From Planctomycetota bacterium (lineage in GTDB: Bacteria > Planctomycetota > UBA1135 > GCA-002686595), in NCBI GenBank assembly GCA_947484275.1, contig CANKOY010000003.1:1-64000 (forward strand): 64,000 bases of DNA, read 5' to 3'. Position numbers and translations under genes: made by a program. This document shows, piece by piece, positions 10,513 through 62,816 of the stretch (the first letter of the stretch is position 1; each line of letters begins with the position of its first letter). The notes under the pieces were generated by a model. The model saw only the letters and a list, made by a program, of their open reading frames with translations, was not told the origin of the DNA and did no database searches.

Positions 10513-11322
10513 TCACGCCCCGTCGCGTGGCGCGGGATCCATGCCATCGCGCGCGACAAATCCAGTGTCGATGCCGCGCGCCTTGGCCATGGACTCGGAT
10601 TGCCCGAGGATCTTTTTCCAAGTGCTTGCGGGCTCCCAGTCCAATTCCGCCGCATTGAGGTACGTGGCAAAGCTCTGACGCAGCCCCTGCGCGCCGCGCA
10701 GACTGAAATGCACTCGGGCCCAGTGGCGCAGGATCAGCGAGCGCCGCCGGAGGCGATGCTGGGCGCCGCGCAGGCCGTCGAGATCCATCAGGACCCAGTT
10801 CGAACCGTCCCACAGCACATTGCGCAGGTGGAAATCGCCGTGGAGGCGGGGTGCGCGGTGCATCAGGGCCATGAAGTGCGGAAAGGCCTCGACCGCGGGG
10901 CCACCAGCGTTCCAGAGCAGGTCGAGGAAGCGACCTTCGACGAATTCGCTGACCAACAGGCTCGCACCGCTGCGGGCTTCGACCAGGACCTGGGGCCTGG
11001 GAGTGACAATTGGTGCCAACTCGACGTGCAATCGCGCTGAGCGTGAGGCGCGCGAGCATCTAAGGCCCAGCTGCACCAGCAGCTCGCGGTCGAAGCGCTT
11101 GATGGCATGGGGCCCATGCCGCCACACGCGATCGGGTTTGAGCACAACGTCCTCGCGCCCGGGGCCGCTCTGAAACCACTTCAGTGCCAGCTGTTCCAGG
11201 GCGCGGTCCGCGGGCTGGAACACCTGCGTCCGAAGTCCCTCGACTGGACCCGCGGGCACCTGGGCTCGATCCGGCTCCGGGGCGACCGCGGGGGCTGCCA
11301 ATCGCGGGTCGACTTGCGACAT
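10513..11322 (-). CDS. Lipopolysaccharide kinase (Kdo/WaaP)-like protein
   Basis: A 269-aa protein-kinase-fold enzyme. The catalytic loop HGDFHLRNVLW holds the Asp base and Asn metal ligand, and VLMDLDG is the DFG-equivalent. A candidate ATP-binding Lys is in HAIKRFDREL. This arrangement matches the Kdo kinase/WaaP family, which phosphorylates heptose or Kdo of the LPS inner core at the cytoplasmic membrane. It is divergent from the GT4 gene of the same envelope block. TAGCAT lies 9 nt before the ATG with no Shine-Dalgarno, suggesting a leaderless mRNA. Confidence 0.78.
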   Translation of the reverse strand: MSQVDPRLAAPAVAPEPDRAQVPAGPVEGLRTQVFQPADRALEQLALKWFQSGPGREDVVLKPDRVWRHGPHAIKRFDRELLVQLGLRCSRASRSARLHVELAPIVTPRPQVLVEARSGASLLVSEFVEGRFLDLLWNAGGPAVEAFPHFMALMHRAPRLHGDFHLRNVLWDGSNWVLMDLDGLRGAQHRLRRRSLILRHWARVHFSLRGAQGLRQSFATYLNAAELDWEPASTWKKILGQSESMAKARGIDTGFVARDGMDPAPRDGA

Positions 11323-11331
11323 CTTTGGGTC

Positions 11332-11337
11332 ATGCTA
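11332..11337 (-). promoter_or_regulatory. Putative -10 box of the kinase gene
   Basis: TAGCAT on the minus strand ends 9 nt before the ATG at 11322. A transcription start 6-8 nt downstream of the hexamer would fall at or next to the A of ATG. No good -35 is seen at 16-18 nt. Confidence 0.4.
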
Positions 11338-11484
11338 GCTGCCGTTCGCGGAGTCAACGAGGCCCCAAAGCCCAAAAGTGCTGGTCGTGACGTCGCTTCA
11401 AAAACCGGGCGTCCCGTAGACGGCGGCGCGCGGGTTGGGCCCGGTAGCGACCATCGCAGTCCGCCAGCCGCGTCTTCGGATTCC

Positions 11485-11490
11485 TACACT
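11485..11490 (+). promoter_or_regulatory. Putative -10 box of the GT4 gene
   Basis: TACACT ends 9 nt before the ATG at 11500 and there is no Shine-Dalgarno between them. The geometry predicts a leaderless transcript. The -35 region is not recognisable. Confidence 0.45.
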
Positions 11491-11499
11491 GCGCCACCC

Positions 11500-12624
11500 A
11501 TGGCCGCGCCGAACTCCCTGACCCTGTGCCACATCGACGCGGAACGGAAGTTCTCGGGCGGAGAAGTGCAGGTGTTCTTGCTGATGCACGGCCTGCGCGA
11601 GCGCGGACACCGTTCGGTCTTGATGGCACCGCCCGGCTCCGAGGCCGCGCTGCGAGCCGCCCGCGACGGATTCGAAGTGCGCGAGGTGCCCATGCGCTCC
11701 GACCTCGATTTGCCCGGGATCTTGGCAGCCACGCGAATCCTGCGCGAAGTCGCGCCCGATCTTGTCCACCTGCACACCGGCCGCGCGGCTTGGCTGGGCG
11801 GACTCGCGGCTAGGCGGGCGAATCTGCCCGCCATCGTCACCCGGCGTATGGACCGCGACGTGCGCAGAGGTTGGCGGACGAGAATGATCTACGGATCCCT
11901 GACCTGCAAAGTCGCTGCGATTTCGGAGAGCGTGGCCGCGGCACTGGAAGCTGGGGGCGTGCCCAAGGACCGGATCGCGTTGATTCGGAGTTCGATCGAT
12001 CCCGACGCTTTCGCGCCCCGCGTGTCGCGCAGGGAGCTGCGCGCGGAGCTCGGTGTGGCCGAGGACTCAATCGTCGTGCTGACTCTCGGCGCACTGGTGC
12101 AGCGGAAGGGGCTCGACGTGCTTTTCACGGCACTGGAGCAACTCTCTACGGCGGGGCACGTGCCCGACGTGTGGATCGCGGGAGAGGGCGCGGAACAGCA
12201 GGCTCTGCAGTCTCTCGCGCGCGCGAAAAGGCTCGCACGCGTCAGATTTCTCGGCCGGCGCAGCGATGTGGCCGAGCTGCTCGGTGCCGCCGACCTGTTC
12301 GCCATGCCTTCGCGTCGCGAGGGTCTGGGCGTCGCGGCCCTGGAAGCCATGGCCGCGGGCTGTCCCGTGGTTGCCAGTGGCGTCGGCGGCCTTGCCGAAG
12401 TGGTTGAGTCCGAAGTCAGCGGACTCCTGGTGGCGCCCGAGGACCCCGCTGCCCTGGCAGAAGCGCTCGGGCGCTTGATCACTGACCCGGCACTGCGCGC
12501 GAGGATGTCGGAAGCCGGTCGAGTGCGCGTTGCCGCGCGCCACAGTGCGCGCGCGATGGTCGAAGCTTACGAGGCCCTGTATCGTCGCGTGCTCGCTGAG
12601 CTCGACGCAGCTTCAAGCAGATGA
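11500..12624 (+). CDS. GT4-family glycosyltransferase
   Basis: A GT-B fold glycosyltransferase of 374 aa. The N-terminal acceptor half begins SLTLCHIDAERKFSGGE, with the glycine loop after the first strand. The C-terminal nucleotide-sugar half carries VLTLGALVQRKGLDVL, WIAGEGAEQQ, VRFLGRR and the E-x7-E region SRREGLGVAALEAMAAGCPVVAS, all typical of retaining GT4 enzymes. It is likely to act in the cytosol on an LPS core or other envelope glycan, given its overlap (ATGA) with a WaaE-like GT2 gene and the divergent Kdo-kinase-like gene. I start at ATG 11500; the open frame further upstream crosses the divergent gene and is not coding. Confidence 0.88.
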   Translation: MAAPNSLTLCHIDAERKFSGGEVQVFLLMHGLRERGHRSVLMAPPGSEAALRAARDGFEVREVPMRSDLDLPGILAATRILREVAPDLVHLHTGRAAWLGGLAARRANLPAIVTRRMDRDVRRGWRTRMIYGSLTCKVAAISESVAAALEAGGVPKDRIALIRSSIDPDAFAPRVSRRELRAELGVAEDSIVVLTLGALVQRKGLDVLFTALEQLSTAGHVPDVWIAGEGAEQQALQSLARAKRLARVRFLGRRSDVAELLGAADLFAMPSRREGLGVAALEAMAAGCPVVASGVGGLAEVVESEVSGLLVAPEDPAALAEALGRLITDPALRARMSEAGRVRVAARHSARAMVEAYEALYRRVLAELDAASSR

Positions 12625-16270: not shown

Positions 16271-16343
16271 GGGCGGCGGGGATTCTCTCCCTTGGCCGGT
16301 CGAGGTGGAAGCGCGGCGGTCGATTCTCGAGCTCAGTGACGCG

Positions 16344-16372
16344 TTGGAGTCGCCAGGGTTCCTGCGTAGACT
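16344..16372 (+). promoter_or_regulatory. Promoter TTGGAG-17-TAGACT
   Basis: -35 TTGGAG at 16344-16349 and -10 TAGACT at 16367-16372, 17 nt apart. The -10 ends 10 nt before the ATG at 16383, so the message would be leaderless or nearly so. An identical hexamer pair with identical spacing precedes trxB (58342-58370). Confidence 0.65.
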
Positions 16373-16382
16373 CCAGCCCGCG

Positions 16383-18767
16383 ATGCAGCGTTGGCCTTTC
16401 GACCCACTGAGCTTTTTCTGCTCGGCGCTCGCGGTCCTCGTTCGCCTGGGCTGTCTCGCGGGCCTGGTTGGACTGCCTGGCTGCGGCCAGAGCTCTCGGG
16501 CTGTGGATTCGCTCGCGTTGGTCGAGGCCCTGGCCACATCCGATCACTGCGCCATCGGCGTCCCTGACCAGGCGACGCTTGAGCGCGTGCGCGAGCGACT
16601 TGCGCGCCAGGCTCCCTCCCGTTGGAAATACAAGCTGACGCTGGAGGCGCGCCGGGAGTCGAGCCCACCTCGCGCCCCAAGATTCTGGATCGGAACGCCG
16701 CAGTCCACCGGCGCCGAGGCTGCCCTGCAGCGCCTGGGGGTCGAGTGTTCCGAGCGCGGCTTTCGATTCCAGGGGCGCGACTACTCCGGGCTCGGCGACG
16801 GGTTGATCGCCACAGTGATCGACCCCGAGCGGTCCGGCGCCATCTTGTCGTTGGTGCTGGCCGTAGACCTCGAGCAAGGGCTGCATTGGATTCGAGATTG
16901 GACCCCGACATCGCGGCTTTCCTTTCAGGTTTACGGCGGAGGATCGGTGCTGCGCGAGGGCGCCGTCGATCCGTCGGGCGAGGCGAGCGCAATCGATGTG
17001 CTCGAACTGGCGAGTCTAGATCCTGAGCTCGATCCGAAACGCGAATCCGGGGAGCGCGCTGAGTTCGACTGGAGCGCGTCAGCCGCTTTCGACGCCGACC
17101 TGGAGGCGAATTGGCTCCACAGCCTCGATCGCGCCTGTGCCGCAGCGCGATTGCGTTTGGGCACGCTCACGCCCATCGACGCCCATTGGCGGTTGATGTT
17201 GCGCCTGTTCGACACCCCCGAAGAACTGGCGAGGATTTCTAGGACGCACGATTGGGCCGCGCTGCGACGCTCGGAGCCCCAGGCGGAGTTGTCACTGGTG
17301 CACAGGCCAGGGCGTCCCGACAACGGGCCCTTCGAACTGGCGCGCGCCGCGACCTTGGTCAGCGTCGGTGAGCCGCGCGCGGCCTGGTTGCTCGACGCCA
17401 CCGCTGCGCTCAGCGCAGGGGAGTGGTTCGCCCGCCCGCGGGCCCAGTGGCTGGCGCACCTGTGGAACGGCGGCCTGACGCCGAGCGTGACGCAACTCGT
17501 ATCCGCCGACGGCGCCCTCTCGGCCCATGTGGCTCAGCCCATGCGTGGCGCGCTGCTCGCCTGCCTCGAAGAACTGCACGGAGCGGATTTCGCCGCGCGT
17601 CACTGGTCCAGCGCGGCGGAGGGCATCGCGCTGCCCAGCGAAGATGAATTTCGGGCCTGGCTTGAACGCTCCGTAGACGCGGAACTCGCACCCAACCTCC
17701 AATTGCGCGACAGGCGCAGGGCGGATGCGCGTGAACGCCCCGCGCGGCGCGGAGCTTGTGTGGTGCCCAGTCCAGGTCGACCGGATCCGTTCGCGGGGGG
17801 CCTGGGTTCGCGGACCTGTGAGGGCAGTTTGGAGCAACTGAGCAAGCTCGGTGCGAGCGCCGTGGCCCTTTCCTGGTGCACTGCAATCGCGACCAGCGAG
17901 CCGCGCGTTTTCGGCGCGGGCGCCGGGGCCTGGACGTCCGCCGAGGATCCGGCGCTCTTCGCGACCATCCTGCACGCCAGGGAGTTGGGCATGGAGGTCA
18001 CGCTCCTGCCGCAACTGGTGGCCAGCGAGAACGGCGGCTGGGCCTCCCAGGTAATGCTGACCACACCCCGCACGCAGCGCGAGTTGTTCCACAGCTGGAG
18101 GCGCTTCGTCACGAACGTCGGCCTCTTGGCGGAACTTGCGGGGGTCGATGTGCTTTCACTGGGGACCGAAGCCCCCGACACCGTCGTCACGCGCAAGAGC
18201 CAAGGAAATCGGCGCTCAGAACTGGAGCTCGAGGGCCTGCGTTTGGATTGGCGCGTCCTGATCCAAGCGGGACGCGCTGCCTTCGGCGGGGGCCTGACCT
18301 ACGCAGCGCGCTGGGATGGGGAAGCCCAGGGCGCGGAGTTCTGGGGCGAGCTGGATTTCCTGGGGCAAAACGTGTTTCCCCGACTGGAGCCAGGGACGAC
18401 CGGCGCAGCGCCGAGCGTTGAGGAGTTCACTGATCGAATCATGGGGAACCTCGCGCACCTCAAGCAATTGAGTGCGCAGTACGGCGTGCGGCCGCTGATC
18501 TGCGGCATCGGCCTCAGCTCTAGCGCGGATGGATGGCGACAGATGTCGCGGCCCGCGGGCGCCCTGGACCTCGAGGTGCAGCGGCGCTTCTACGCAGGGA
18601 TGTCCCGCGCGCTCCAGGCCGCGCGTACTCAGGAGCTCTCGCCCGCCGGATTTTTCACCTGGTGCTGGTGGAGCGATCCCGCAAGTGGAGGCGACCTCGA
18701 TCGCGGCTTTACGCCCCAGAACAAGCCGGCCGTCTCATCCTTCGCACGCGCGCTCGAGGTCCGGTGA
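16383..18767 (+). CDS. Lipoprotein with C-terminal GH113-like TIM-barrel domain
   Basis: A 794-aa lipoprotein (lipobox LPGC after a hydrophobic signal). The N-terminal 400 or so residues are of unknown fold. The C-terminal third looks like a glycoside hydrolase family 113-type barrel: LSWCTAIATSEPRVF, HARELGMEVTLLPQLV, VDVLSLGTEAPD with a possible acid/base Glu, FWGELDFLGQNVFPRL, then RPLICGIGLSSSADGW and FFTWCWWSDPASGG. In related hydrolases I expect a TEIG motif where this protein has CGIG, so the second catalytic Glu may be lost. It could be a carbohydrate-binding relic or a divergent enzyme. It overlaps recG (GTGA) and heads that operon. Domain assignment is from memory of the family and moderately sure. 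Confidence 0.62.
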   Translation: MQRWPFDPLSFFCSALAVLVRLGCLAGLVGLPGCGQSSRAVDSLALVEALATSDHCAIGVPDQATLERVRERLARQAPSRWKYKLTLEARRESSPPRAPRFWIGTPQSTGAEAALQRLGVECSERGFRFQGRDYSGLGDGLIATVIDPERSGAILSLVLAVDLEQGLHWIRDWTPTSRLSFQVYGGGSVLREGAVDPSGEASAIDVLELASLDPELDPKRESGERAEFDWSASAAFDADLEANWLHSLDRACAAARLRLGTLTPIDAHWRLMLRLFDTPEELARISRTHDWAALRRSEPQAELSLVHRPGRPDNGPFELARAATLVSVGEPRAAWLLDATAALSAGEWFARPRAQWLAHLWNGGLTPSVTQLVSADGALSAHVAQPMRGALLACLEELHGADFAARHWSSAAEGIALPSEDEFRAWLERSVDAELAPNLQLRDRRRADARERPARRGACVVPSPGRPDPFAGGLGSRTCEGSLEQLSKLGASAVALSWCTAIATSEPRVFGAGAGAWTSAEDPALFATILHARELGMEVTLLPQLVASENGGWASQVMLTTPRTQRELFHSWRRFVTNVGLLAELAGVDVLSLGTEAPDTVVTRKSQGNRRSELELEGLRLDWRVLIQAGRAAFGGGLTYAARWDGEAQGAEFWGELDFLGQNVFPRLEPGTTGAAPSVEEFTDRIMGNLAHLKQLSAQYGVRPLICGIGLSSSADGWRQMSRPAGALDLEVQRRFYAGMSRALQAARTQELSPAGFFTWCWWSDPASGGDLDRGFTPQNKPAVSSFARALEVR

Positions 18768-20841: not shown

Positions 20842-21588
20842 TTGGAAGCCTTCCTCACGACCGAGAACCTGATCGCCCTCCTGACGCTGACGGCGCTCGA
20901 GATTGTCCTCGGGATCGACAACATCGTTTTCATTTCGATCCTGACCGGGAAGTTGCCCAAGGAACAACAGTCGCGGGCGCGAACCATGGGCCTCGCGATG
21001 GCGATGCTCATGCGCATCGGGCTGTTGCTTGCGATCACCTGGGTGATGGGGCTGACGCGCACGCTGTTCACCGTCGTCGGGAACGATGTGTCGGGGAAGG
21101 ACTTGATCCTGTTCGTCGGCGGACTGTTCCTCTTGGCCAAGTCGACCCATGAAATCCACGACCGGATGGAGGGCCAGGGCCACGTTGGGGAGAACGGCCG
21201 CTCCCATCCCAGTTTCGTCAGCGTCATCGCGCAGATCACTCTGCTCGACATCGTGTTCTCGCTAGATTCCGTGATCACTGCGGTAGGCATGGCATCGAAC
21301 ATCGCGACGATGGTCATTGCCGTCGTCATCGCCGTGGGCGTGATGATGATTTTCTCGGGCCGCATCTCGAGCTTCATCGAGCGCCATCCGACCCTGAAGA
21401 TGCTGGCGCTGTCTTTCCTGATCTTGATCGGCGTGATGTTGGTGGCGGAGTCCATGGATCAGCACGTGAACAAGGGCTACATCTACTTCGCGATGGCCTT
21501 CTCGCTGGGGGTCGAACTCCTGAACATTCGCCTGCACAACAAGAAGCTCGCCCAGCAGACGCGGGTGGAGTCCGGAGGCAAGGGCTAG
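20842..21588 (+). CDS. TerC-family integral membrane protein
   Basis: A protein of 248 aa with about seven transmembrane helices. The TerC signature LTALEIVLGIDNIVFISI, with its acidic membrane residues, and LLDIVFSLDSVITAVGMA are both present. Family members are linked to metal-ion efflux (Mn2+) and to protein-loading of membranes, and some belong to tellurite-resistance clusters; no ter genes are nearby. The start is uncertain: no ATG fits. TTG 20842 matches the usual N-terminus, while CTG 20809 overlaps the recG stop. It follows recG closely. Its last bases overlap the convergent LtaS-like gene by four bases (CTAG). Confidence 0.85.
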   Translation: MEAFLTTENLIALLTLTALEIVLGIDNIVFISILTGKLPKEQQSRARTMGLAMAMLMRIGLLLAITWVMGLTRTLFTVVGNDVSGKDLILFVGGLFLLAKSTHEIHDRMEGQGHVGENGRSHPSFVSVIAQITLLDIVFSLDSVITAVGMASNIATMVIAVVIAVGVMMIFSGRISSFIERHPTLKMLALSFLILIGVMLVAESMDQHVNKGYIYFAMAFSLGVELLNIRLHNKKLAQQTRVESGGKG

Positions 21589-23564
21589 CCGTCGCGTTTC
21601 GTCGCCTCGCGAGGCGGCAGCGCCACGCGACCCGCGACTAGGTCGCGCAAGAAGGCTTCGTTGTAGATCGCGAACTCGCGCATGCGGCGAACGGCCGAAT
21701 CCGCGGCCGCTTTGGCCGCGGGCTCGCTCTTGTCGTCGATGCGCCGCGGAGCCAGGCCGCGCGGGTCCGTGTCGAGTTCGACGGCCCAGCGCGCGTCCGA
21801 CTCAGACTCCCAGATCCACTTGGAGTGTCCGTCGATCAACGCTGCCGTGCGCTCGGTGCCGTAGGACTGCAGGAACACGGTGCGCTCGCGCTCGCCGAGC
21901 AGAAGCGACTCGCCCGACAGGGGCAGACCCTGGGGCGCAAGTCCAAGCAGGTCCAGGATTGTCGGCAGGACGTCGACCTGTCGCGCGCGGCCCAGTCGCA
22001 ACATCGACATGTCGACGCCCGGCGCAAAGAAGAGCAGCGGCACCTCGTGGGCATTCTCGGTCAGCGAGCTGTGACGCGGAGCGAAGCGCCCGGCCTTGAA
22101 GTCTTCGCCGTGGTCGGCCGTGATCACGAAAAGCGTGTTGTCGTAGAGTCCGCGTCTGCGGTATTCCTCGAGCAACTCGCCGAACACGGTGTCGGTGTAG
22201 CGCACCGCGCGGCCGTGGCGCTCCTCTTCGCTGCCCTTCACCTGTCCAGGGAACTGGTAAGGATAGTGGGAGGACATCGTGTAGTAGGTGGCCGCGAAGG
22301 GCTGGCGTTCGACGAGTCGACCGTGGTCCCAAAGGAACATCAGCCGGTCGTCGCGCGAGCGCGGGCCGACTTCGTCGAACGCAATTCCCTGACTTGCCGA
22401 AATGGCCTGCAGGTCGAGGAACGCGACCAGTTCGCCAAAGCCCAGGCGCTGGAACATCGTGCGCTGGCCCTGGTAGTACAGATGTTGCGGCGTCACGCAG
22501 ACGCTGGAGTAGCCCGCATCCTCCAGCGCTGAGGGCAGGCCGCTCATGGCCTTCATCTCGCACTCGAGCACTTCCATGGTCTGCGCTGCATACACGCCGC
22601 TCAACAGACCGAAAGTGGCCTTTGAGGAATTCGCAAACTGCGCGTAGCAGGGCGTTTCCACCGCGCCTTGGGAGAGCAGGCCCGCCAGCACCGGCGTCGA
22701 GTTCTCTGCGTTGGAGCCAAACGAGGTTTGCTCGCGCGCGAGACTCTCGATCACATACAAGACGACGTTTCGACCCGCGCACAGAGCGGGCTTCGAATCG
22801 CGGCGGTGGGCAAAACTCGCGGCAGTGGATCGCGCGACCGGCTGCTCCGATGGACGCGTCTGATGCTGGTCGTAGCCGACCACCGCCCTGTCGATCGGCA
22901 GGAGCGTCGCGAGGACGAAATTGCGATGCAAACCGTAGGGTTGCGCGGGCGACAGGAAGGCCAGGATCCCTAGGGGCACGAGCGCGAGCTTGCCGAGCAG
23001 CGGAATGCGCAGCAGTCGCTCCAAACTCCCGAGCGCTCGGGCGATGGCGCGTGCAAATGGAACCCAGGGCGACAGGAATGCGCCGAGCAGCACCCCGAGT
23101 GATGCGAGCGCCGCGATCCAGTAGCTGCTGCCGGTGAACACGGTGTAGTCCGGTCCGATGGTGCGCGCCTCGGCAATCGCGTACTTCAGCCACGCCCAGG
23201 AGAGCGGATGGAGGAAGCGCACTTTCATTCGCGCGTCGACACACTGGAAGATCAGCACAAGGCAACAGACCGCGACCGTCAGAGCCAATGCGCGAGCGCC
23301 GCCCTTGCGCAGCCAAAGCCGCCAGATCGCGTAGAGGCACGCGATCAGAAACAAATCCTGGGGGAACGCCTGGGCGTACTGCCACGGGGACCAGGCCTCC
23401 TGGATGCGGAAATTCCCGCTGACCAGGCTGTATGCCCTCCAGACAAGGCACAGAAGGAACAGCGCGAAGAGCCCCGCTCGCCCGCTCGCGACCGCGCGCG
23501 AATCTTCGTCCGCTCCCTGGCTCCCAGGTTCCTTTGCTCGCCCGATGACCGGTGACGACTCCAC
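21585..23564 (-). CDS. LTA-synthase-like sulfatase-fold membrane enzyme
   Basis: A protein of 659 aa. The N-terminal 240 residues contain about five membrane helices; the extracytoplasmic C-terminal domain has the alkaline-phosphatase/sulfatase fold. NVVLYVIESLARE gives the first metal ligands, NSSKATFGLLSGVY holds the nucleophile region (Ser where Thr is common), and ITADHGEDFK and HEVPLLFFAPG complete the metal site. Such enzymes transfer phosphoglycerol or similar groups from lipids to glycans in the envelope, like LtaS and OpgB. The glycerophosphodiesterase elsewhere in the window would fit that chemistry. It starts with GTG 23564, with TATGTT 8 nt upstream and no Shine-Dalgarno, so leaderless transcription is likely. 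Confidence 0.82.
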   Translation of the reverse strand: MESSPVIGRAKEPGSQGADEDSRAVASGRAGLFALFLLCLVWRAYSLVSGNFRIQEAWSPWQYAQAFPQDLFLIACLYAIWRLWLRKGGARALALTVAVCCLVLIFQCVDARMKVRFLHPLSWAWLKYAIAEARTIGPDYTVFTGSSYWIAALASLGVLLGAFLSPWVPFARAIARALGSLERLLRIPLLGKLALVPLGILAFLSPAQPYGLHRNFVLATLLPIDRAVVGYDQHQTRPSEQPVARSTAASFAHRRDSKPALCAGRNVVLYVIESLAREQTSFGSNAENSTPVLAGLLSQGAVETPCYAQFANSSKATFGLLSGVYAAQTMEVLECEMKAMSGLPSALEDAGYSSVCVTPQHLYYQGQRTMFQRLGFGELVAFLDLQAISASQGIAFDEVGPRSRDDRLMFLWDHGRLVERQPFAATYYTMSSHYPYQFPGQVKGSEEERHGRAVRYTDTVFGELLEEYRRRGLYDNTLFVITADHGEDFKAGRFAPRHSSLTENAHEVPLLFFAPGVDMSMLRLGRARQVDVLPTILDLLGLAPQGLPLSGESLLLGERERTVFLQSYGTERTAALIDGHSKWIWESESDARWAVELDTDPRGLAPRRIDDKSEPAAKAAADSAVRRMREFAIYNEAFLRDLVAGRVALPPREATKRDG

Positions 23565-23572
23565 GGCGGGCC

Positions 23573-23578
23573 AACATA
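23573..23578 (-). promoter_or_regulatory. Putative -10 box of the LtaS-like gene
   Basis: TATGTT on the minus strand, 8 nt before the GTG start at 23564 and without an intervening ribosome-binding site. On the plus strand, TATCCT at 23691-23696 is a candidate -10 for the divergent HEAT gene. Confidence 0.4.
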
Positions 23579-23743
23579 CTCCGCGCCCAGCGAAACGCCG
23601 CCGTCTATCGCATTGCCCTTCTGGTGGCGGGCCGCAGGGGGTGTGACTGCAATCGAAGGCGGCGATTTACCGGCAGCGGGATGGATCGCGTATCCTGCGG
23701 CGCTGGACGGGCTACTGCTTGCCCCGCCTGCTCCAAGGATCCC

Positions 23744-26700
23744 ATGCAACGAATCCTCGCCCTCGTGAGTCTGTGCTTTGCGCCTTGCGTTCTCGCGCCG
23801 GCAGCGCTGGCGCAGATCGAATTTCCCGATAAGCCCGTGACCGCGCCGAGCACGCCCGTCCCGGTGGAGTTGCCCGCCGTTCCGAGCGGGAACTTGGCGG
23901 ATCGAGGGCTCGAGAAGCCGTCCGAGGTCGGCGGGGGAACGGAGACCCCCGTAGGCGAACTTGGGTTCCCGGAGGTCCAGGTTCCCGACCCGTTGGCGGC
24001 CACCGGGGATCCCGGTCGAATCGACGCCGGGCCTCTCGGCAACTTGCCGCCGGGGCGGCGCGACGCGGCGAATTTCATCCTGACGGAACTGCGCCGGATC
24101 GAGAACGTGCGCCACACCATGGTCGATCAGGCGGCTCAGAGTCTGATCGGGCTTGGGGATGAAGGCCGCGAAGGCGCGCGAATGGGATTGATGGAGAACC
24201 GCGCTGCGACGATCCTCGCCTGCGCCAAGGTGCTCCTGTCTTCCGACAAGGCGGCCGATCGCGAACTGGTTCGCGCTCGCATGCGCTCGAAGCTGCCAGC
24301 GGCAGTGGGCGGACCCTTGGTGGATGCATTCGCCACCCTCGATCCAGTGGGCGCGAGCCCCTCAGCATTGGCGTTGCTCCTCGATCATCCACTTGTGGGC
24401 GCGCGCGCTGCCGCCCAGCGCCGACTCGAGGGGCTACAGGACGCGGGACACCTCCCCGCGCTGATCGAACAACTGCGCTCGAGTCGCGCAGACACGCGCC
24501 TGCGCGCCCTGTCCTTGGCAGCGCGATTCGAAGTCGATGGCGTGGTCGAGCAGGTCATCGGCCGACTCAAGGATCCTGCAGCCCAAGTGGCGGAGCGCGC
24601 TGCCTTGTTGCTTGCCGCGCGTACAGATCCGGCCATCGTCGGACAGTTGCGCGTCAGGGCATTTGACCAACCATGGATTCTGCGCGAGAACGCCTACGCG
24701 ATTCTGGCGCTGATCGAGCGCGAGGACGCGCTGCTCACGCCGTGCTTCGACGAGCGCCACGTTCCGAACCTGCTCGAAGGTCTTGCCAGTTCCGATCCCT
24801 TCATCGCCGGCATGTGCGCCGCAGCGCTTTCCGGCATTGGTTTTCGCTCGACGACACTCGGGGCTGAGGATTGGATCGATCGCGCGGTCCCCGAGCGCCT
24901 GGTGCGCTGCGTCAGCGGCCACGAATTCCACAACGATTTCAGTTCCCTGCAGCGCGCCGCCTGCCGCCGACTGTCGCTGATCTCCGGTCAAGTGTTCGGT
25001 AGCGACGGCCCGCTGTGGATGAAATGGTGGACCGAATCGCACGCGAGCTTCCGTTCGCGGCGCGCCGTCATCGCTGCCGGCCCGGAGCTGGCCGTTTCCC
25101 TGCGATTGGGGTGGCGCGACGAGCTCTCCGGATTGGAGCAGTTCCGGATCCTCGGTCCCACAGCCACCTCCGAACCACTCGATTCCGCGCTGCCTTTCGC
25201 CGGTGATGTGTTCCGCATCAGCGCGTCCCAGGCGGCCGATGTCTACGCCATGCTGCAGGAAATGCGCGTGTTTTCCGCCGAGCGCCTGCCGGGCGTGCGG
25301 GGATCGAGCACACTTCCCGGCCGCTACCTCGAGGTCGGCATCGGCGATCAAGGCAAGTCCTTCCGCTTCGCAGGCACTGCCACCGAGGCCTGGTTCGACA
25401 CCGTCGGCGCGGCTCTGCGGGCCGTGCGCGATCGCAACCGCTGGCAGTGCTATCCGTCGCCACCGCGGCACGCTCGCGCGGAGGATCTTTGGTTCGAGCA
25501 GTTCGCCTGGTGGGACACGGATGCATCCCAGCACGAGCGCGCCCTGCGGATGAAGACCTTGGTGCTCGAGGCGTTGCCCGCGTACCCCTTCGATCAGCGC
25601 GGCGGCGGGATCGCCGAGCTGGTCGCGATCTACGCGGAGCGCGAGAACATCGCTGACGCGGATTTTCCCGCGCTGGTGGAGCTGCTGCAGCAGGAGCCGT
25701 TCTACGGGCCCCGGGCCCGCGCGCTCCTTGGGCTTTCCATTGCCCACCTGGGCGCGAACTCAGCTGCCGCGAACGCGCGCGCTGACTTACTGCTCTCTGT
25801 GGCCACCGAGCGCTTCGGCGAGCAGACGGGCGAGGCCGTGACACAGATCCTCGCCGGCGCCGGCCCCGCGGCCGTGCGCGCTGCCACGTTCGACCCGCGA
25901 CCCAACGTGCGCGCCGTGGCCGCTGGCTTGGCGCTGGCACTGGGAGAAAGCGGGGACGTGCAGCGCGCCGAATCCATGCTGACGGACAAAGCGCTTTCGG
26001 TTCAGGTCGCGGCCGTCGTGGCCCTGGGGAATCAGCGCGTCGAGTCGGCGCGCGTGGAACTATTGCTGCGCGCGCGCCTGGCGGAGGATGCCTCCGTGCG
26101 CGCGGCGGCCCTCGGCGCCATGGCCGAACTCGGCGGCGAGGGCGCACTGGACGCCATGGTGCTCGGTCTGACCAGCCCGATTCCCGCGATCAAGGTCGCC
26201 GCGGCCCGCGGACTGGCGCGCATCGGCGATCCCACCGCGGCACCGTTGCTGATTTCCTTGCTGGGCCAAGGCCGCGGCTCCGATGTGTTCGAAGCCGCGC
26301 GTCAGGGGTTGACTGCCCTGGGTGAGCTGGCGACCAACGATCTGCTGCGCGCGATCAACACGCCCGGTCACCGCGCCCGGCGCGAGGGCGCATTGCTGCT
26401 CTCGCAGTTGGGTGTGCCCGAGGCCGTCCCGGTGCTTCTCGCGTTATTCAGCGACAGTCCCAATGACTCGCTGATCGCCAGCGAACTGGCGGTCATCACC
26501 TGCGTCGACCTGCGCCGCGCGGGCAATCCGCCGGTAGCGTATTGGGACTGGTGGGAGGGCGTCGTGCACGACGATCCCAACGCTTGGCTGTGCGGAGCCC
26601 TGGAGCGCCTGGACGTGCGCGCGCCCGCGCCGAAGGAACTGCGCGCTCCCGGCTCGCGCAAGGCGATGCTCTTTCTGGCCAGCCTGCTGCGCCGCTTCGA

Positions 26701-26842
26701 GCCTCAGATCGTGGAGCGTGCGCGCCGCGACCTCGGCCGACTCCTCGGCCGCGATTTGGGCGCCTTGCCTGTGGTCGGGGACGACCGCAACCTGCTGATT
26801 GCCGAGTTGGAGCGCGAAATCGACGTGCGCTTCCCGCAGTAG
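23744..26842 (+). CDS. Large exported HEAT-repeat protein
   Basis: A protein of 1032 aa with a clear signal peptide (cleavage near ALAQ). A short Pro-rich spacer follows, then HEAT-like helical repeats through most of the length, for example LLDHPLVGARAAAQRRLEGL, AVVALGNQRVESARVELLLR and AARGLARIGDPTAAPLLISL. Two W..WW motifs (LWMKWW, YWDWW) resemble that of the VWA protein at 1241-2869. It should act as a periplasmic scaffold; partners are unknown. AAGGA precedes the ATG. It is the first gene of a co-directional run that continues through the transglycosylase, MscS and the bat genes. Confidence 0.75.
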   Translation: MQRILALVSLCFAPCVLAPAALAQIEFPDKPVTAPSTPVPVELPAVPSGNLADRGLEKPSEVGGGTETPVGELGFPEVQVPDPLAATGDPGRIDAGPLGNLPPGRRDAANFILTELRRIENVRHTMVDQAAQSLIGLGDEGREGARMGLMENRAATILACAKVLLSSDKAADRELVRARMRSKLPAAVGGPLVDAFATLDPVGASPSALALLLDHPLVGARAAAQRRLEGLQDAGHLPALIEQLRSSRADTRLRALSLAARFEVDGVVEQVIGRLKDPAAQVAERAALLLAARTDPAIVGQLRVRAFDQPWILRENAYAILALIEREDALLTPCFDERHVPNLLEGLASSDPFIAGMCAAALSGIGFRSTTLGAEDWIDRAVPERLVRCVSGHEFHNDFSSLQRAACRRLSLISGQVFGSDGPLWMKWWTESHASFRSRRAVIAAGPELAVSLRLGWRDELSGLEQFRILGPTATSEPLDSALPFAGDVFRISASQAADVYAMLQEMRVFSAERLPGVRGSSTLPGRYLEVGIGDQGKSFRFAGTATEAWFDTVGAALRAVRDRNRWQCYPSPPRHARAEDLWFEQFAWWDTDASQHERALRMKTLVLEALPAYPFDQRGGGIAELVAIYAERENIADADFPALVELLQQEPFYGPRARALLGLSIAHLGANSAAANARADLLLSVATERFGEQTGEAVTQILAGAGPAAVRAATFDPRPNVRAVAAGLALALGESGDVQRAESMLTDKALSVQVAAVVALGNQRVESARVELLLRARLAEDASVRAAALGAMAELGGEGALDAMVLGLTSPIPAIKVAAARGLARIGDPTAAPLLISLLGQGRGSDVFEAARQGLTALGELATNDLLRAINTPGHRARREGALLLSQLGVPEAVPVLLALFSDSPNDSLIASELAVITCVDLRRAGNPPVAYWDWWEGVVHDDPNAWLCGALERLDVRAPAPKELRAPGSRKAMLFLASLLRRFEPQIVERARRDLGRLLGRDLGALPVVGDDRNLLIAELEREIDVRFPQ

Positions 26843-46441: not shown

Positions 46442-46738
46442 TCAGCCGAGATTCTCGGCGGGCCTCACCAGCAGGCGCCCGTGGCCGCTGACGAGGCTCG
46501 TCACTTTGGCCCAAGCGGAGCCAGCACCGAGGCGCCACAGGCGCGCGGTGTGTTCGGGATTGCACCGCGCAGCGGTCACGTCGTGTCTTGCGATCCGCGG
46601 ACGGCGTGAAACGGGAGCACACGCTGCCCGGTGCCACAGGCCCAAGGAGGGCGAGCGACCGGTAACGTGCCGAACGAACTCGAAGCCCGAGGCAATCCGC
46701 CCGTGGGGCGGGTTCTCCAGGGTCTTGCGCCGATCCAT
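46442..46738 (-). CDS. Hypothetical 98-aa protein
   Basis: A small open frame directly upstream of doxX on the same strand. The product is basic and shows no signal peptide, membrane helix or family I know. The GC content of third codon positions is high at both ends and weaker in the middle, so coding status is doubtful. In its favour, a TAGACT hexamer ends 6 nt before the ATG, as for several other genes in this window. It could instead be a long leader of the doxX message. Confidence 0.35.
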   Translation of the reverse strand: MDRRKTLENPPHGRIASGFEFVRHVTGRSPSLGLWHRAACAPVSRRPRIARHDVTAARCNPEHTARLWRLGAGSAWAKVTSLVSGHGRLLVRPAENLG

Positions 46739-46744
46739 GGCCGG

Positions 46745-46750
46745 AGTCTA
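46745..46750 (-). promoter_or_regulatory. Putative -10 box upstream of the hypothetical/doxX unit
   Basis: TAGACT on the minus strand, 6 nt before ATG 46738. The hexamer is the same as at 16367 and 58365. No convincing -35 is seen. Confidence 0.4.
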
Positions 46751-48734: not shown

Positions 48735-48742
48735 AGTATACT
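48735..48742. promoter_or_regulatory. Palindromic AGTATACT: shared -10 of two divergent genes
   Basis: AGTATACT reads the same on both strands, so it offers TATACT in each direction. On the plus strand the hexamer ends 7 nt before the xylA ATG (48750). On the minus strand it ends 10 nt before the GDPD ATG (48724). Only 25 bp separate the two start codons and neither has a Shine-Dalgarno, so both messages should be leaderless. Confidence 0.65.
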
Positions 48743-48749
48743 TGCCGCC

Positions 48750-49922
48750 ATGGATCCCTACGCTCCCACTGCCCAGGACCGCTTCAGCTTCGGCCTTTGG
48801 ACCGTAGGCAACCCCGGTCGCGATCCCTTTGGCGAGCCCGTGCGGGCTGTCGTGTCCCCCGAGCGCATCGTGCAGAAGCTCTCCGAGTGCGGCGCCAGTG
48901 GCGTCAACCTCCACGACGACGATCTGGTGCCCTACGGTTCCTCGGCGAAGACCCGCGACACGATCGTGGCCAGCTTCAAGGCCGCCCTGGAGGACCACGG
49001 AATGGTGGTGCCGATGGCCACCACGAACCTGTTCTCGCATCCGGTGTTCAAGGACGGCGCTTTCACTTCCAACGATCCGCGCGTGCGCGCGTTCGCGTTG
49101 GGCAAGACCATGCGCGCCATCGACCTGGGCGTGGAACTTGGTGCGAAAATCTATGTCTTCTGGGGCGGACGCGAGGGCAGCGAGGCCGACGCCTGTCGCG
49201 ATCCGCGCACGGCCATCGCGCGCATGCGCGAGGCACTCGACTACCTGTGCGAGTACGTTCGCGATCAGAAGTACGCGCTGCGTTTCGCCCTGGAGGCCAA
49301 GCCCAACGAGCCCCGCGGCGACATCTACATGCCGACCACGGGGCACATGTTGCACTTCATCTCGACACTGGCGCACTCCGAGATGGTCGGCGTCAATCCC
49401 GAGGTGGCCCACGAGACCATGTCCGGGCTTTCCATGGCCCACGCCGTGGCCCAGGCCATGGAAGCAGGCAAGCTGTTCCACATCGATCTCAACGCCCAGC
49501 GCATCGGGCGCTACGACCAGGATTTTCGCTTTGGTTCCGAGGACCTGCGCCAGGCGTTCCTCGTCGTGCGCTTGCTGGAAGGTACGGCCGGCGGCGAGGC
49601 ATACACAGGGCCGCTGCATTTCGACAGCCACGCCTACCGCACGGAGGACGACGAAGGCGTGTGGGATTTCGCGCGCGGTTCCATGCGCACCTACAAGATC
49701 CTGCACGAGCGCGCACGGGCCTTCGACAGCGACCCGCGCGTCCTGGCGCTGATCGCGGAGCGGCGAGACGCGCGGCTCGAAGCGCTCTCGAGCAACTACA
49801 CTCGCGCGAAGTCAGAGGCGCTCAAAGTCGAGTCGATCGACGTTGGCGCGGTGGCGAAAGCTGGTCTTGGATACGAGCGCCTCGATCAACTGATGGTCGA
49901 GCACATGCTCGGCGTGCACTGA
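48750..49922 (+). CDS. xylA: Xylose isomerase (class I)
   Basis: Converts D-xylose to D-xylulose. The 390-aa length and sequence match the short class I (Actinoplanes/Streptomyces) type: FSFGLWTVGNPGRDPFG at the N-terminus, GVNLHDDDL with catalytic His55 and Asp58, FALEAKPNEPRGD with metal-binding Glu, NPEVAHETMSG and FHIDLNAQRIGRYDQD with the Asp ligands. It is divergent from the GDPD-glpD unit and followed after 7 bp by xylB. Confidence 0.96.
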   Translation: MDPYAPTAQDRFSFGLWTVGNPGRDPFGEPVRAVVSPERIVQKLSECGASGVNLHDDDLVPYGSSAKTRDTIVASFKAALEDHGMVVPMATTNLFSHPVFKDGAFTSNDPRVRAFALGKTMRAIDLGVELGAKIYVFWGGREGSEADACRDPRTAIARMREALDYLCEYVRDQKYALRFALEAKPNEPRGDIYMPTTGHMLHFISTLAHSEMVGVNPEVAHETMSGLSMAHAVAQAMEAGKLFHIDLNAQRIGRYDQDFRFGSEDLRQAFLVVRLLEGTAGGEAYTGPLHFDSHAYRTEDDEGVWDFARGSMRTYKILHERARAFDSDPRVLALIAERRDARLEALSSNYTRAKSEALKVESIDVGAVAKAGLGYERLDQLMVEHMLGVH

Positions 49923-54675: not shown

Positions 54676-54720
54676 CGCGCGGGATTCGATCACCGGCCAG
54701 GGATTTGATCTACTGAGACG

Positions 54721-57265: not shown

Positions 57266-58303
57266 CTAGGCGAGGACCTCGGCCAGTGCCGCACGAAGGT
57301 GCGGCTCCAAGCGCGCTCGGGTCCCCGGGTTGACCCATGCGGCAAAACTGACTGGCGTGGTGCAGTCGATTGGAAAATCGAGCCTCTCTCCGTCGATGCC
57401 AGTGACATCCGCGCCTGCTTCGCGCGCCACGAGTACCGCCCCAGCGATGTCGTAGGGATGTGTGGCCAGGGATGGGATCTCAGGGCGCGCCGTACCCAGG
57501 GTGGCGCGCAGATCCACGCTCATGCGGTAGGTCCCCAGGCACAGGAGCGCGAGCTGTCCGCCGGAGCTGATGTACTGATCGTCGTAGCAGGAGCGCGTGT
57601 CAGCATGCTCCAGTCGCGCGAGGCGTTCGAAGAAACGCGCTTCGACCGCGGCGATCAGCGGGCGTTGGGCAGCGAGGTAGCGGAACATCGGAAAGTAGCC
57701 GTGGTCCGCGCGCGCATCTTTGCCGGTGTTCAATCGTCGCGCGCTGTGCAACACCTCGGTCGTCAGCGTGCGCTCCTCGAAATGGGCGCCGTGGCCGAGG
57801 ACTGCGCTCAGTGAGCGCCAGCGCGCCGCGCGCGAGTCGGGGATTTCGCTCACCAGGCCCAGGGTCAGATCGGACATGCGCGGCTCGCCGCTTCCTGGGG
57901 GGGCGAAGGACACAATACTCCAGGCGGATCGCAGGTCGCTCATGAGGTGGCGCGTTCCATCGATCGGATCGATGGCGATGCGCGGTCCGCCGTGATCGAA
58001 GTCCGCAAGTTCCAGCGCCGCGCCGCCGGGGCCGGGACCGCGGTGGCGCCAGCCCTCGTCTTCGGTCAAGAGCGAGATCGGCTGCGTTCGGGCCGTGTGC
58101 TCCAACCAGTTCGTGATCACGTCTTCAGTGCACTGATCGAGCGCGAAGGTCACGTCGCCGGCGCCCTGGCGCACGGGCCGCGCCAGCCGCTCGCCGTCGC
58201 CCCGTGACAACGCGTCCGCCAGCGCCGCACGGGCGGTCTCGCGCACCTGCGTGCAGAGTGCTCCCAGGCGCGCGAGCCACAGCGTTTCCAGATCGCGGGC
58301 CAT
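57266..58303 (-). CDS. Inositol monophosphatase family protein
   Basis: A Mg2+-dependent phosphatase of 345 aa. Metal motif A is IAIDPIDGTRHL and motif B is HPYDIAGAVLVAREAGADVTG; GDVTFALDQCTED and the Glu in LLTEDEGW provide the third metal ligand. The family acts on inositol phosphate, fructose-1,6-bisphosphate, NADP or 3'-phosphoadenosine phosphates. It is longer than typical SuhB because of an insertion at about residues 150-230. I choose ATG 58303; GTG 58321 is in frame. It is divergent from trxB. Confidence 0.85.
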   Translation of the reverse strand: MARDLETLWLARLGALCTQVRETARAALADALSRGDGERLARPVRQGAGDVTFALDQCTEDVITNWLEHTARTQPISLLTEDEGWRHRGPGPGGAALELADFDHGGPRIAIDPIDGTRHLMSDLRSAWSIVSFAPPGSGEPRMSDLTLGLVSEIPDSRAARWRSLSAVLGHGAHFEERTLTTEVLHSARRLNTGKDARADHGYFPMFRYLAAQRPLIAAVEARFFERLARLEHADTRSCYDDQYISSGGQLALLCLGTYRMSVDLRATLGTARPEIPSLATHPYDIAGAVLVAREAGADVTGIDGERLDFPIDCTTPVSFAAWVNPGTRARLEPHLRAALAEVLA

Positions 58304-58341
58304 CTCGCACAAGCTAACCACGTCAGCCCGTCCGCGGGAAG

Positions 58342-59359: not shown

Positions 59360-59477
59360 CAGACAGTTGCGACCAGTTCGTTGAAGAAGGCCCGTCGCCA
59401 GGCAGCGCGTGTGAAGTCGATGCTGTGGCCGCGGAACACGCTTTGACACGGCCGCGGCTTCTTCCGCGGACTGCTAA
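59356..59477. repeat. CTAGCAG-type palindromic element, 122 bp
   Basis: The left end begins CTAGCAG and includes the trxB stop codon; the right end reads GGACTGCTA. Complementary arms with TTGAAGAAGG on the left and CTTCTTCC on the right, plus inner GGCCGCGG segments, give a hairpin. It is a diverged, shorter relative of the element at 38255-38433. Its right end runs directly into TAAACT, 5 nt before the start of the SDR gene, so it may also supply a -10 box. Confidence 0.65.
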
Positions 59478-59485
59478 ACTCCGTC

Positions 59486-60271
59486 ATGGGCAAAACCAAC
59501 AGCTCGGGCCGGCACGTGGCGATTTCCGGCGCCGGCAGCGGCATCGGCCGAGCGATTGCACTGCGCCTCGCCCGTGACGGAGCGCGATTGTCCTTGTTCG
59601 GCCGTCGCGCACCGCCTTTGGACGAAACCGCACTCCGTTGCGAGGCCGAGGGAGCCGAAGCGGTGATAGTGCGCACCTGCGACATCGGCCTTTGCGCCGA
59701 GGTCGACCGCGTTTTCGCGGACTTTGCACGGGAACACGGACCGCTCCACGCCCTTGTGGCCAATGCGGGCATCGGCGGATCAAATGAACCGGGGCCCGGC
59801 GATCGCTTCGAGGAGTTGATCCGCACCAACTTGTTCGGCACCTACGCCACATTGCGAGCCGCTCAGCGGGGATTGGCTCCAGGACCCCAAGCGCGCCACC
59901 TCGTCGTGATCAGCTCGATCCTGGCGCGGATTGGTGTGCCGCAGTACAGCGGCTACTGCGCTTCCAAGGCCGCATTGCTGGGACTCGTGCGCTCACTCGC
60001 GGCGGAGTTGGCCCCAGTCAACGTGCAAGTCAATGGGATTTGCCCCGGCTGGGTGGAGACCGACATGGCCTGGCAGGGTCTCGACGGTATGGCCCAGGGC
60101 GCGGGTCTCACGCGCGAAGAGATGCTCGGGGTCATGATGCAGCGCGTGCCACTCGGTCGCATGGGCCAGCCGGAGGATGTGGCGGGAACGGTGGCCTGGC
60201 TCCTGTCCCCCGGCGCAAACGGAGTAACGGGACAGGGAATCGACATCAACGGCGGCGCGTTCATGGCCTGA
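59486..60271 (+). CDS. SDR-family NAD(P)-dependent oxidoreductase
   Basis: A short-chain dehydrogenase/reductase of 261 aa. The coenzyme motif is ISGAGSGIGRAIAL, NAG appears in LVANAGIGG, catalytic Ser in VISSILA, and the YxxxK pair in YSGYCASK (Tyr and Lys both present). The C-terminus GQGIDINGGAFMA is typical of classical SDRs such as 3-oxoacyl-ACP reductases and hydroxyacyl-CoA dehydrogenases. The substrate is unknown. It stands alone; the start sits at the edge of the repeat element. Confidence 0.92.
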   Translation: MGKTNSSGRHVAISGAGSGIGRAIALRLARDGARLSLFGRRAPPLDETALRCEAEGAEAVIVRTCDIGLCAEVDRVFADFAREHGPLHALVANAGIGGSNEPGPGDRFEELIRTNLFGTYATLRAAQRGLAPGPQARHLVVISSILARIGVPQYSGYCASKAALLGLVRSLAAELAPVNVQVNGICPGWVETDMAWQGLDGMAQGAGLTREEMLGVMMQRVPLGRMGQPEDVAGTVAWLLSPGANGVTGQGIDINGGAFMA

Positions 60272-60443: not shown

Positions 60444-60502
60444 GCCTTGCGAGGAAGTCGCATTCGGGCCGCCTTTCTCGACGTACTTCCACTGCGGGAC
60501 AC

Positions 60503-60508
60503 TAGACT
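60503..60508 (+). promoter_or_regulatory. Putative -10 box of the coiled-coil GT4 gene
   Basis: TAGACT ends 10 nt before the GTG start at 60519, with no ribosome-binding site between. The spacing predicts a leaderless mRNA. No -35 at the standard distance is obvious. Confidence 0.45.
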
Positions 60509-60518
60509 CGCGCGCATC

Positions 60519-62816
60519 GTGCGGATCGCACTCGTGGTTCACGGATTTCCCCCGCTGGAGCGCACCGGCGTCGAGACTCATGTGGCGGCTCTCGCTCGCG
60601 CCCTTGCGCGGCGCGGGGTGGAGGTCGAAGTTTTCGCGCCTCGGACCGATCCCACGCAGCCGGAGTTCGCCCTGCGACGCGAGGAGCGCGATGGCTATGG
60701 CCTGACCTGGGTCATCGCCAATCGAACGCCCCGGTCCGCGGCCGAACACCAGGATCCACCGGGAATGGCGCAGGTCTTCGGCGAGTTCCTCGATCGAGAG
60801 CGACCGGACCTGGTGCACTTTCACCACGCCATGAAGCTTGGCATCGGAATTTTCCATGCGGCGCGCCGGCGCTCAATTCCCTCGGTCTATACGGTCCACG
60901 ATTACTATCCCATCTGCCATCGCGTGATCCTGGCGCGGCCGGACCTGACGCGCTGTTCGAACGTAGGGGACTCCAAGGCCTGCGCGCGCTGCGATCGAGC
61001 CCTCAGTTTCCTGAACCAGGTACAACCCTGGAGCGACTATCAGGGCGGGCTGCTGCCCGAGGGGATGAACCAGCGACAGCGCGAGGCCCTGGAGCGGATC
61101 CTCGGTGGCCACGCCACGGAAGAGGCTGCGTCCGCGCAGGACGCGGAGCGCGCGAAGCTGGATCTCGCTCGCAAAACGGCCTTCGACAGCATCGATCTGC
61201 TGCTCGCGCCCACGCATTTCGTGCGCGGCCAATTGTCCGCTGGCGGATTCGATCCGCGGCGCGTGGAACTGTGCGAGTACGGCATCGATGCGACGACCTT
61301 GGCCGCCCTGGAGCCGCTCGACAGATCCCGTAGACCCCTGACCTTCGGCTACCTGGGCGGCGCCCACAAACACAAAGGTCTGCACGTGTTGCTCGAGGCC
61401 TTCTCGCGACTGGGGTCGACCCCGGGCGCCGCGGCCGGAGCGCGCCTTTCGATCCACGCAGATTCCACGGACCTCGAATACACGAATGCACTGCGCGCGC
61501 GAGCTGGACTCCTGGGCGTCACCTGGCACGGCGCGTACACGCAAACGGAACTGCCGCGCATCATGGAGGGCATCGATGTGCTCGTGTTGCCTTCGATCTG
61601 GTGGGAAAATGCGCCCTTTGTGATTCGCGAGGCCCACGCAGCGCGCCGACCTGTGATCGCGAGCGACTTGCCAGCCCTGCGCGAGAGCGTGGAGGATGGC
61701 GTGGATGGAATGCTCGTGACGCCCGGGGATCCCGAGGCGTTGAAGCGCGCGATGCAGCGCTTGATCCAAGAACCTGAATGGGCTTCGCGTTTGGCGCAGG
61801 GGGCGCGCGCGCCGCGTTCGCTCGACGCCCTGTGCGACGAATTGCTCGGGCGCTACGGCGAATTGCTGCGGCGGCGTGGACCCGCGCTTCCGGCGGCGAT
61901 ACCAGCTAGCGCGCGCGATTTCAGCCAGCGAGTTCTCGAGTGCGAGGCCAGCAGTGTCGCCCGGTTGGCCGAGCGCGCGAGCGCGGGCCTGGAGCGGTTG
62001 GCGCGCTCACTTGGGGTTGAACCGGGGCCGGTGCACGAACCCGAGGTTTCGAGCATCGCCGTTGAACGCCTGCAGGACGCGCGAAGGGAGATCGCGTGGC
62101 GCATGGAACGCGAGCTGCTCCTCGCTGCTCAGAACGCTGACCTCGAAAACTCGCGCGGCGAGCTGACCAAGGAACTGGCGCGCGTCCAACTCGACGGCGA
62201 TCGCGCGCGCGCGGCCCTGGATCAGGCCAGACGTACTCTCGATGCTCGCGAGAACGAGTTGCAGTTCGCCGCCAAGGCCCAGGCCGACGCGGCAAAGGCC
62301 CAGGCAGCTGCGGCAAAGGCTCAGACAGTCGCAGCCAAGGCTCAGGCAGACGCGGCAGAGGCCCTAGAACTCGAACAGCGCGCCCACTCCACGGCGCGCT
62401 CTGCACTCGCGGCAGCCACCGGCGCGCTGCAGACGGCGCTGGCGGATCGCGAAGTGTTGCGGGCCACGCTCAGCGAATTGTCACGCGTCAACGAGACCCT
62501 GGCTGCGGAAGCGGTTGGGGCCGAAGGCGAGTTGCGCGTCCTCGCAGAGCAGGCGGCGGTTCTGAAGCAACACGCGAATTGGCTGGAGCACGAAGCCGCG
62601 CAGCTCACTCGACGGTTCGGCGGCTCGAGCGAATCACTGAGAGATCCCCAGGAATTCCAGGCCGCCACGGCGCTCTTGGATCGCGTGGAGGCTGAGCTCC
62701 AGTGGCGCCGGCGCGAGATGCATGCGCTGTGCGAATCCGGCGGCCGGATCATTCGGGCGCTTGTGGCGCGCAGCGCCCTCGGGCGGCGCATGGGCGCCTG
62801 GGAGCGCAAGCCGTGA
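60519..62816 (+). CDS. GT4 glycosyltransferase with C-terminal coiled coil
   Basis: A protein of 765 aa in two parts. Residues 1-450 are a GT-B enzyme: RIALVVHGFPPLERTGVETH, TFGYLGGAHKHKGLHVLLEA and WWENAPFVIREAHAARRPVIAS. After the VHDYYPIC segment it has C133-x12-C146-x8-C155-x2-C158, as in the transferases at 39988 and 41334. Residues 480-740 are alpha-helical, with an AKAQADA-type heptad repeat at about 585-617, and probably form a long coiled coil. The helix could set chain length or hold partner enzymes. The downstream GT2 gene overlaps (GTGA). Confidence 0.85.
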   Translation: MRIALVVHGFPPLERTGVETHVAALARALARRGVEVEVFAPRTDPTQPEFALRREERDGYGLTWVIANRTPRSAAEHQDPPGMAQVFGEFLDRERPDLVHFHHAMKLGIGIFHAARRRSIPSVYTVHDYYPICHRVILARPDLTRCSNVGDSKACARCDRALSFLNQVQPWSDYQGGLLPEGMNQRQREALERILGGHATEEAASAQDAERAKLDLARKTAFDSIDLLLAPTHFVRGQLSAGGFDPRRVELCEYGIDATTLAALEPLDRSRRPLTFGYLGGAHKHKGLHVLLEAFSRLGSTPGAAAGARLSIHADSTDLEYTNALRARAGLLGVTWHGAYTQTELPRIMEGIDVLVLPSIWWENAPFVIREAHAARRPVIASDLPALRESVEDGVDGMLVTPGDPEALKRAMQRLIQEPEWASRLAQGARAPRSLDALCDELLGRYGELLRRRGPALPAAIPASARDFSQRVLECEASSVARLAERASAGLERLARSLGVEPGPVHEPEVSSIAVERLQDARREIAWRMERELLLAAQNADLENSRGELTKELARVQLDGDRARAALDQARRTLDARENELQFAAKAQADAAKAQAAAAKAQTVAAKAQADAAEALELEQRAHSTARSALAAATGALQTALADREVLRATLSELSRVNETLAAEAVGAEGELRVLAEQAAVLKQHANWLEHEAAQLTRRFGGSSESLRDPQEFQAATALLDRVEAELQWRRREMHALCESGGRIIRALVARSALGRRMGAWERKP

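Follow-up and report, generated by a model that had tools for sequence, protein, structure and literature searches.

Near-start TANNNT hexamers point to leaderless transcription of a minority of first genes in a planctomycete genome and its relatives

The window, i.e. the whole 64,000-nt stretch analysed here, belongs to contig C3 of a planctomycete assembly (3.67 Mb, 101 contigs, 87.9% complete, 66.5% GC). The RpoB of this genome is 81% identical to that of an uncultured planctomycete, and an RpoB tree places the genome inside the Planctomycetota with full support, apart from the Gemmataceae and the anammox lineages. Several genes of the window carry a TANNNT hexamer shortly before the start codon, d being the number of bases that separate the two. 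On the minus strand these are TAGTCT at 2876-2881 (d=6; gene 1241-2869 with a VWA domain; posterior in the mixture model described below 0.84), TAGCAT at 11332-11337 (d=9; a 269-aa gene starting at 11322), TATGTT at 23573-23578 (d=8; sulfatase gene 21585-23564; posterior 0.91), TAGACT at 46745-46750 (d=6; gene 46442-46738; posterior 0.92) and TAGCTT at 58311-58316 (d=7; gene 57266-58303; posterior 0.84). On the plus strand we find TACACT at 11485-11490 (d=9; glycosyltransferase gene starting at 11500), TAGACT at 16367-16372 (d=10; GH113-like gene starting at 16383; posterior 0.57), TAAACT at 59475-59480 (d=5; gene 59486-60271; posterior 0.42) and TAGACT at 60503-60508 (d=10; gene starting with GTG at 60519; posterior 0.38). 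One further site, at 48735-48742, serves both strands.

The first-pass annotation had listed 11 starts with TANNNT 5-10 nt upstream and no Shine-Dalgarno (SD) site. Ten of them carry the hexamer and, including those at 11322 and 11500, lack an SD at SD spacing, but the start at 54721 (+) has no TANNNT within 20 nt (54705-54720, TTGATCTACTGAGACG; TACTGA is found instead), and the start at 58303 (-) had been overlooked. By chance, fewer than one match would be expected among the ~29 non-operon genes of the window (binomial P about 2e-9); as the listed starts were chosen by eye, the genome-wide test weighs more. The genes at 11322 (-) and 11500 (+) are sound: the minus-strand ORF has a coding potential of 46.6 versus 12.2 for the opposing plus-strand ORF, and in the 374-aa protein encoded from 11500 the Glyco_transf_4 match begins at residue 19, which makes this start plausible. 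The called starts of the divergent genes 21585-23564 (-) and 23552-26842 (+) overlap by 13 bp (23552-23564), and one of the two is probably wrong.

The start codons of the divergent genes 48724 (-) and 48750 (+) are only 25 bp apart, and their putative -10 boxes overlap in the perfect palindrome AGTATACT (48735-48742), which provides TATACT for both genes (d=10 and d=7, respectively). Judged from its sequence, the region between 48724 and 48750 is a candidate for a minimal two-way leaderless promoter. Palindromic shared -10 boxes are no general design: apart from the clear example at 48735-48742, only one other divergent pair less than 60 bp apart has two genes of the leaderless type. In seven of 30 orthologs of the 48750 gene (the own gene being one of the seven), a plausible start is preceded by TANNNT at 5-10 nt. 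In other genera, the hexamer lies 6-7 nt from the N-terminally conserved start at L212, L214 and L215, and at L210 it is kept at 6-7 nt, but the start is shifted; other orthologs show a -10-like site further upstream or an SD-like site. The initiation mode of this gene appears to switch between genera. The gap between another pair of divergent starts (L016:17014-17072) is filled by an inverted repeat of 22 nt (CATAGCGGATGGGTGAAGGAAC ... GTTCCTTCACCCATCCGCTATG) that is near-perfect and possibly an operator; TATGGT precedes one of these starts by 9 nt.

The -10 boxes might be real and the true translation starts lie downstream, so that the mRNAs have ordinary leaders. Many genes do have alternative in-frame starts, and start calls are imperfect in this GC-rich genome, the mixture model having shifted 16305 to 16383 and 60447 to 60519. 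We nevertheless regard downstream starts as highly improbable, since the N-terminal residues encoded from 48750 are conserved across about 20 orthologs, beginning at the proposed start itself, the glycosyltransferase domain encoded from 11500 begins at residue 19, and genes with TANNNT are depleted of SD sites, not enriched in them. Allowing every alternative start within a coding-score slack raised the decoy counts too much to be useful.

At the gene level the genome was sampled by 864 kb of stretches from the 3.67-Mb assembly, whereas pattern counts refer to the whole genome. A home-made codon-pair caller yielded 677 genes in the 864 kb, the start codons being picked by coding potential alone and upstream sequence being ignored. 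The genes were classed as first/divergent (n=308), preceded by gaps of 41-100 nt (n=82; together with the former, 390 non-operon genes) or operon genes (n=242). When the hexamers are counted by distance to the start codon in this sample, the peak foreseen by the first-pass annotation is present, at d=6-9. At d=5-9, TANNNT precedes 39/308 first/divergent genes (5-8/308 in equal windows further upstream) and 11/82 of the genes with 41-100 nt gaps, i.e. 50/390 non-operon genes versus 7-10 in control windows, and TA...T tops the enrichment before first genes among all 3-position hexamers with a fixed first base. The preferred forms are TAGACT, TAGGAT and TACACT. Counted as TA-led genes, 57/308 first/divergent genes stand against 0-10/308 in five shuffles of the upstream sequence.

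In principle, such a signal could be largely an artefact of in-frame TAG/TAA stop codons, of the AGGA within TAGGAT, or of wrong starts. G is indeed frequent at hexamer position 3 (28/50), and the AGGA of TAGGAT could be an SD. TAGGAT, however, accounts for only 8 of the 39 first-gene hexamers, which leads us to reject this source, and start choice was blind to upstream sequence. The peak spans d=6, 7, 8 and 9 with 15, 12, 13 and 8 genes, the out-of-frame spacings 7 and 8 being as strong as 6, and the excess is kept by TAYNNT, which is free of both stops and TAGGAT, in the own genome (129/52) and, with z>4, in 41 of the 42 strongest genomes of the survey described below. Stop codons are thus ruled out as the source, and the artefact as a whole is extremely improbable.

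A -10 element is not the only way to read a genuine signal, as the hexamer could serve translation as a non-SD signal, or belong to an S1 site or an A/T-rich region of low structure near the start, with no promoter involved. Ahead of first genes, A becomes generally more frequent around -15 to -9, and Nakagawa 2017 (PMC5397173) could not tell leaderless from S1 signals. Yet the best decoy hexamer of equal composition reaches only 20/308 first/divergent genes compared with 39/308 for TA...T, positions 1, 2 and 6 are specifically required, the spacing is sharp, and SD sites are excluded. Moreover, operon genes, which need translation signals too, show a much weaker signal (11/242; Fisher P=0.0009 against first/divergent genes). 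Taken together, this makes a translation signal very unlikely and favours the -10 element.

The exclusion of SD sites bears out the claim of missing SD sites made for the window: an SD outside the hexamer is found in 1/50 TANNNT genes versus 70/340 other non-operon genes. Likewise, operon genes had been said to use SD sites or stop/start overlaps, and 145/242 do, with 119/242 overlapping their upstream neighbour, 84 of them by ATGA-type 4-nt overlaps. A check of the 16S anti-SD found no 16S in the assembly. A mixture model with an SD and a -10 component, fitted with fixed motifs and from varied seed hexamers, gave TANNNT a weight of 0.244 at first/divergent genes versus 0.02-0.06 on shuffled upstream sequences, and of 0.23 versus 0.03-0.07 at all non-operon genes. 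Fits seeded with T.A..T, TC...T or CA...T converge on a TAGACT-like motif at 6-9 nt; those seeded with AT...T, TT...A or GT...A did not. No -35 consensus was detected: the best match to TTGACA averages 2.68 at spacers of 15-19, against 2.62 in non-TA genes and 2.29-2.65 for other offsets. At positions -2 and -1, first and operon genes alike strongly favour C (about 0.5 each), which hence is not a transcription-start signature alone.

From the mixture modelling we estimate the leaderless-type share of non-operon genes at about 15-20%. Of the first genes, 15% are led by an SD site, and the majority carry neither signal; in the fixed-motif fit, the component with neither motif takes w0=0.58 and TANNNT 0.24, of which ~0.05 is expected by chance. 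With over half of the first genes lacking both motifs, the leaderless account covers a minority, i.e. leaderless-type genes are a sizeable minority of first genes and not their rule. The proposal that first genes are translated from leaderless mRNAs is therefore retained only in part: where the hexamer is present, the sequence is best read as giving an mRNA with no leader or almost none, but as a minority mode (~15-20%).

Run through the identical pipeline, E. coli gave no signal (6/112 versus 11-15 in control windows), and plasmid 3 of Deinococcus deserti a modest one (12/129 versus 2-6). In D. radiodurans, de novo motif work places the -10 motif before nearly a third of the genes (PMC12340547), so the Deinococcus result shows that coding-only starts underestimate the share. 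Among relatives, the signal is seen in G015 (20/199, controls 1-3), G095 (15/203, controls 2-9) and G123 (9/70, controls 1-6), there is little in G011 (5/91), G161 (1/67) and G162 (3/76), and none was detected at the gene level in G163. For G161 and G162 the samples were short, and both show a whole-genome excess.

We consider it very likely that the near-start hexamers are -10 elements giving leaderless mRNAs at ~15-20% of the first genes of transcription units, a reading that draws on the fixed spacing between -10 and start, the SD depletion, the enrichment at first genes and the N-terminal homology at 48750. TANNNT would be read by the housekeeping sigma factor, in what is most likely ordinary leaderless transcription. 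With the -10 element lying 6-9 nt upstream of the start codon, transcription would begin at, or about 0-4 nt from, that codon, the mRNA would have no room for an SD site, and translation would proceed without SD pairing from the 5' start codon. Other first genes of transcription units would be SD-led, and genes inside operons would depend on SD sites and on overlaps of stop and start codons.

Promoters of this kind are known. In Mycobacterium tuberculosis (Cortes 2013, PMC3898074), leaderless genes make up about a quarter of those with a mapped primary start and, as here, TANNNT serves as -10 without a consensus -35 and coexists with SD-led genes; there, however, the starts were mapped by RNA-seq, whereas our evidence comes from sequence and from another phylum, and the base preceding TANNNT and the spacing differ somewhat here. 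In Deinococcus-Thermus (PMC12340547), TANNNT, again with a preference for TACACT-like forms and without a required -35, lies about 6-7 bp before the ORF and alternates with the SD motif, and in D. radiodurans the near-ORF -10 motif is proven by reporter tests. The present genome differs in its lower estimated share (15-20% of non-operon genes instead of nearly a third of genes) and in its spacing of 6-9, by which some mRNAs would carry leaders of 1-4 nt. In the TA-led bacterial genes of Zheng 2011 (PMC3160421), the first T of TANNNT lies some 12 bp ahead of the start codon, and the centre is degenerate in high-GC genomes; here the peak at d=6-9 places the first T 12-15 bp upstream, and the spacing, the excess over shuffles and the lack of SD agree with that class. 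The concentration at first genes of transcription units and the dominance of the -10 without a consensus -35 are those of the Mycobacterium/Deinococcus type.

GeneMarkS-2 results, in the form quoted in PMC9581028, assign leaderless transcription to 21.6% of bacterial species, so that it is not confined to Actinobacteria and Deinococcus-Thermus. The first-pass annotation was mostly right that no such rule had been described for organisms of the present kind: Planctomycetes are not among the phyla listed with TA-led genes by Zheng 2011 (PMC3160421); leaderless and/or S1-type signals were hinted at for one planctomycete (Nakagawa 2017, PMC5397173). Our search, which covered few subscription papers, found no paper describing a near-start -10 or leaderless mode as a feature of these lineages. 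What is added is a taxonomic extension of a known promoter kind, patchily distributed, to lineages for which no clear earlier description was found. In practice, gene-finding and annotation software that presupposes SD sites will set starts wrongly in these genomes, and for a large gene class of uncultured planctomycetes the promoters become readable straight from sequence.

Across 149 Planctomycetota genomes, TANNNT at d=6-9 before CATG was compared with the frame-preserving control d=18-21. A spacing-specific excess with z>4 is found in 74/149 genomes and a ratio of at least 2 in 42/149, the own genome having 249/103; in the own sequence, 30/50 pattern matches fall on or close to gene starts versus 3/22 control matches. 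The outgroups (Bradyrhizobium, Flavobacteriia, Calditrichales, Verrucomicrobiales) and an anammox genome have ratios near 1, Zavarzinella has 1.12, and Sphingopyxis and Solibacter about 1.2. Low-GC genomes have a higher background, and a small leaderless set may go undetected there. Of the 76 families sampled, 28 are positive throughout and 36 negative throughout. We give about even chances to the view that leaderless transcription is old in the Planctomycetota and was repeatedly lost or weakened, being widespread in the class-level lineage to which the window belongs and in its neighbour families but undetected in others. If true, the evolution of leaderless initiation could be followed along a natural series within the phylum, in which the same gene switches mode between genera; the patchy spread within one phylum is a testable system for gain and loss. 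Families with an RpoB identity of at least 65% to the window are nearly all positive, the exceptions being G025 (1.02) and G063 (1.13). G025 belongs to the same order as the window (family f8) and its neighbours in the RpoB tree show the excess; it is a candidate for a recent loss of near-start TANNNT.
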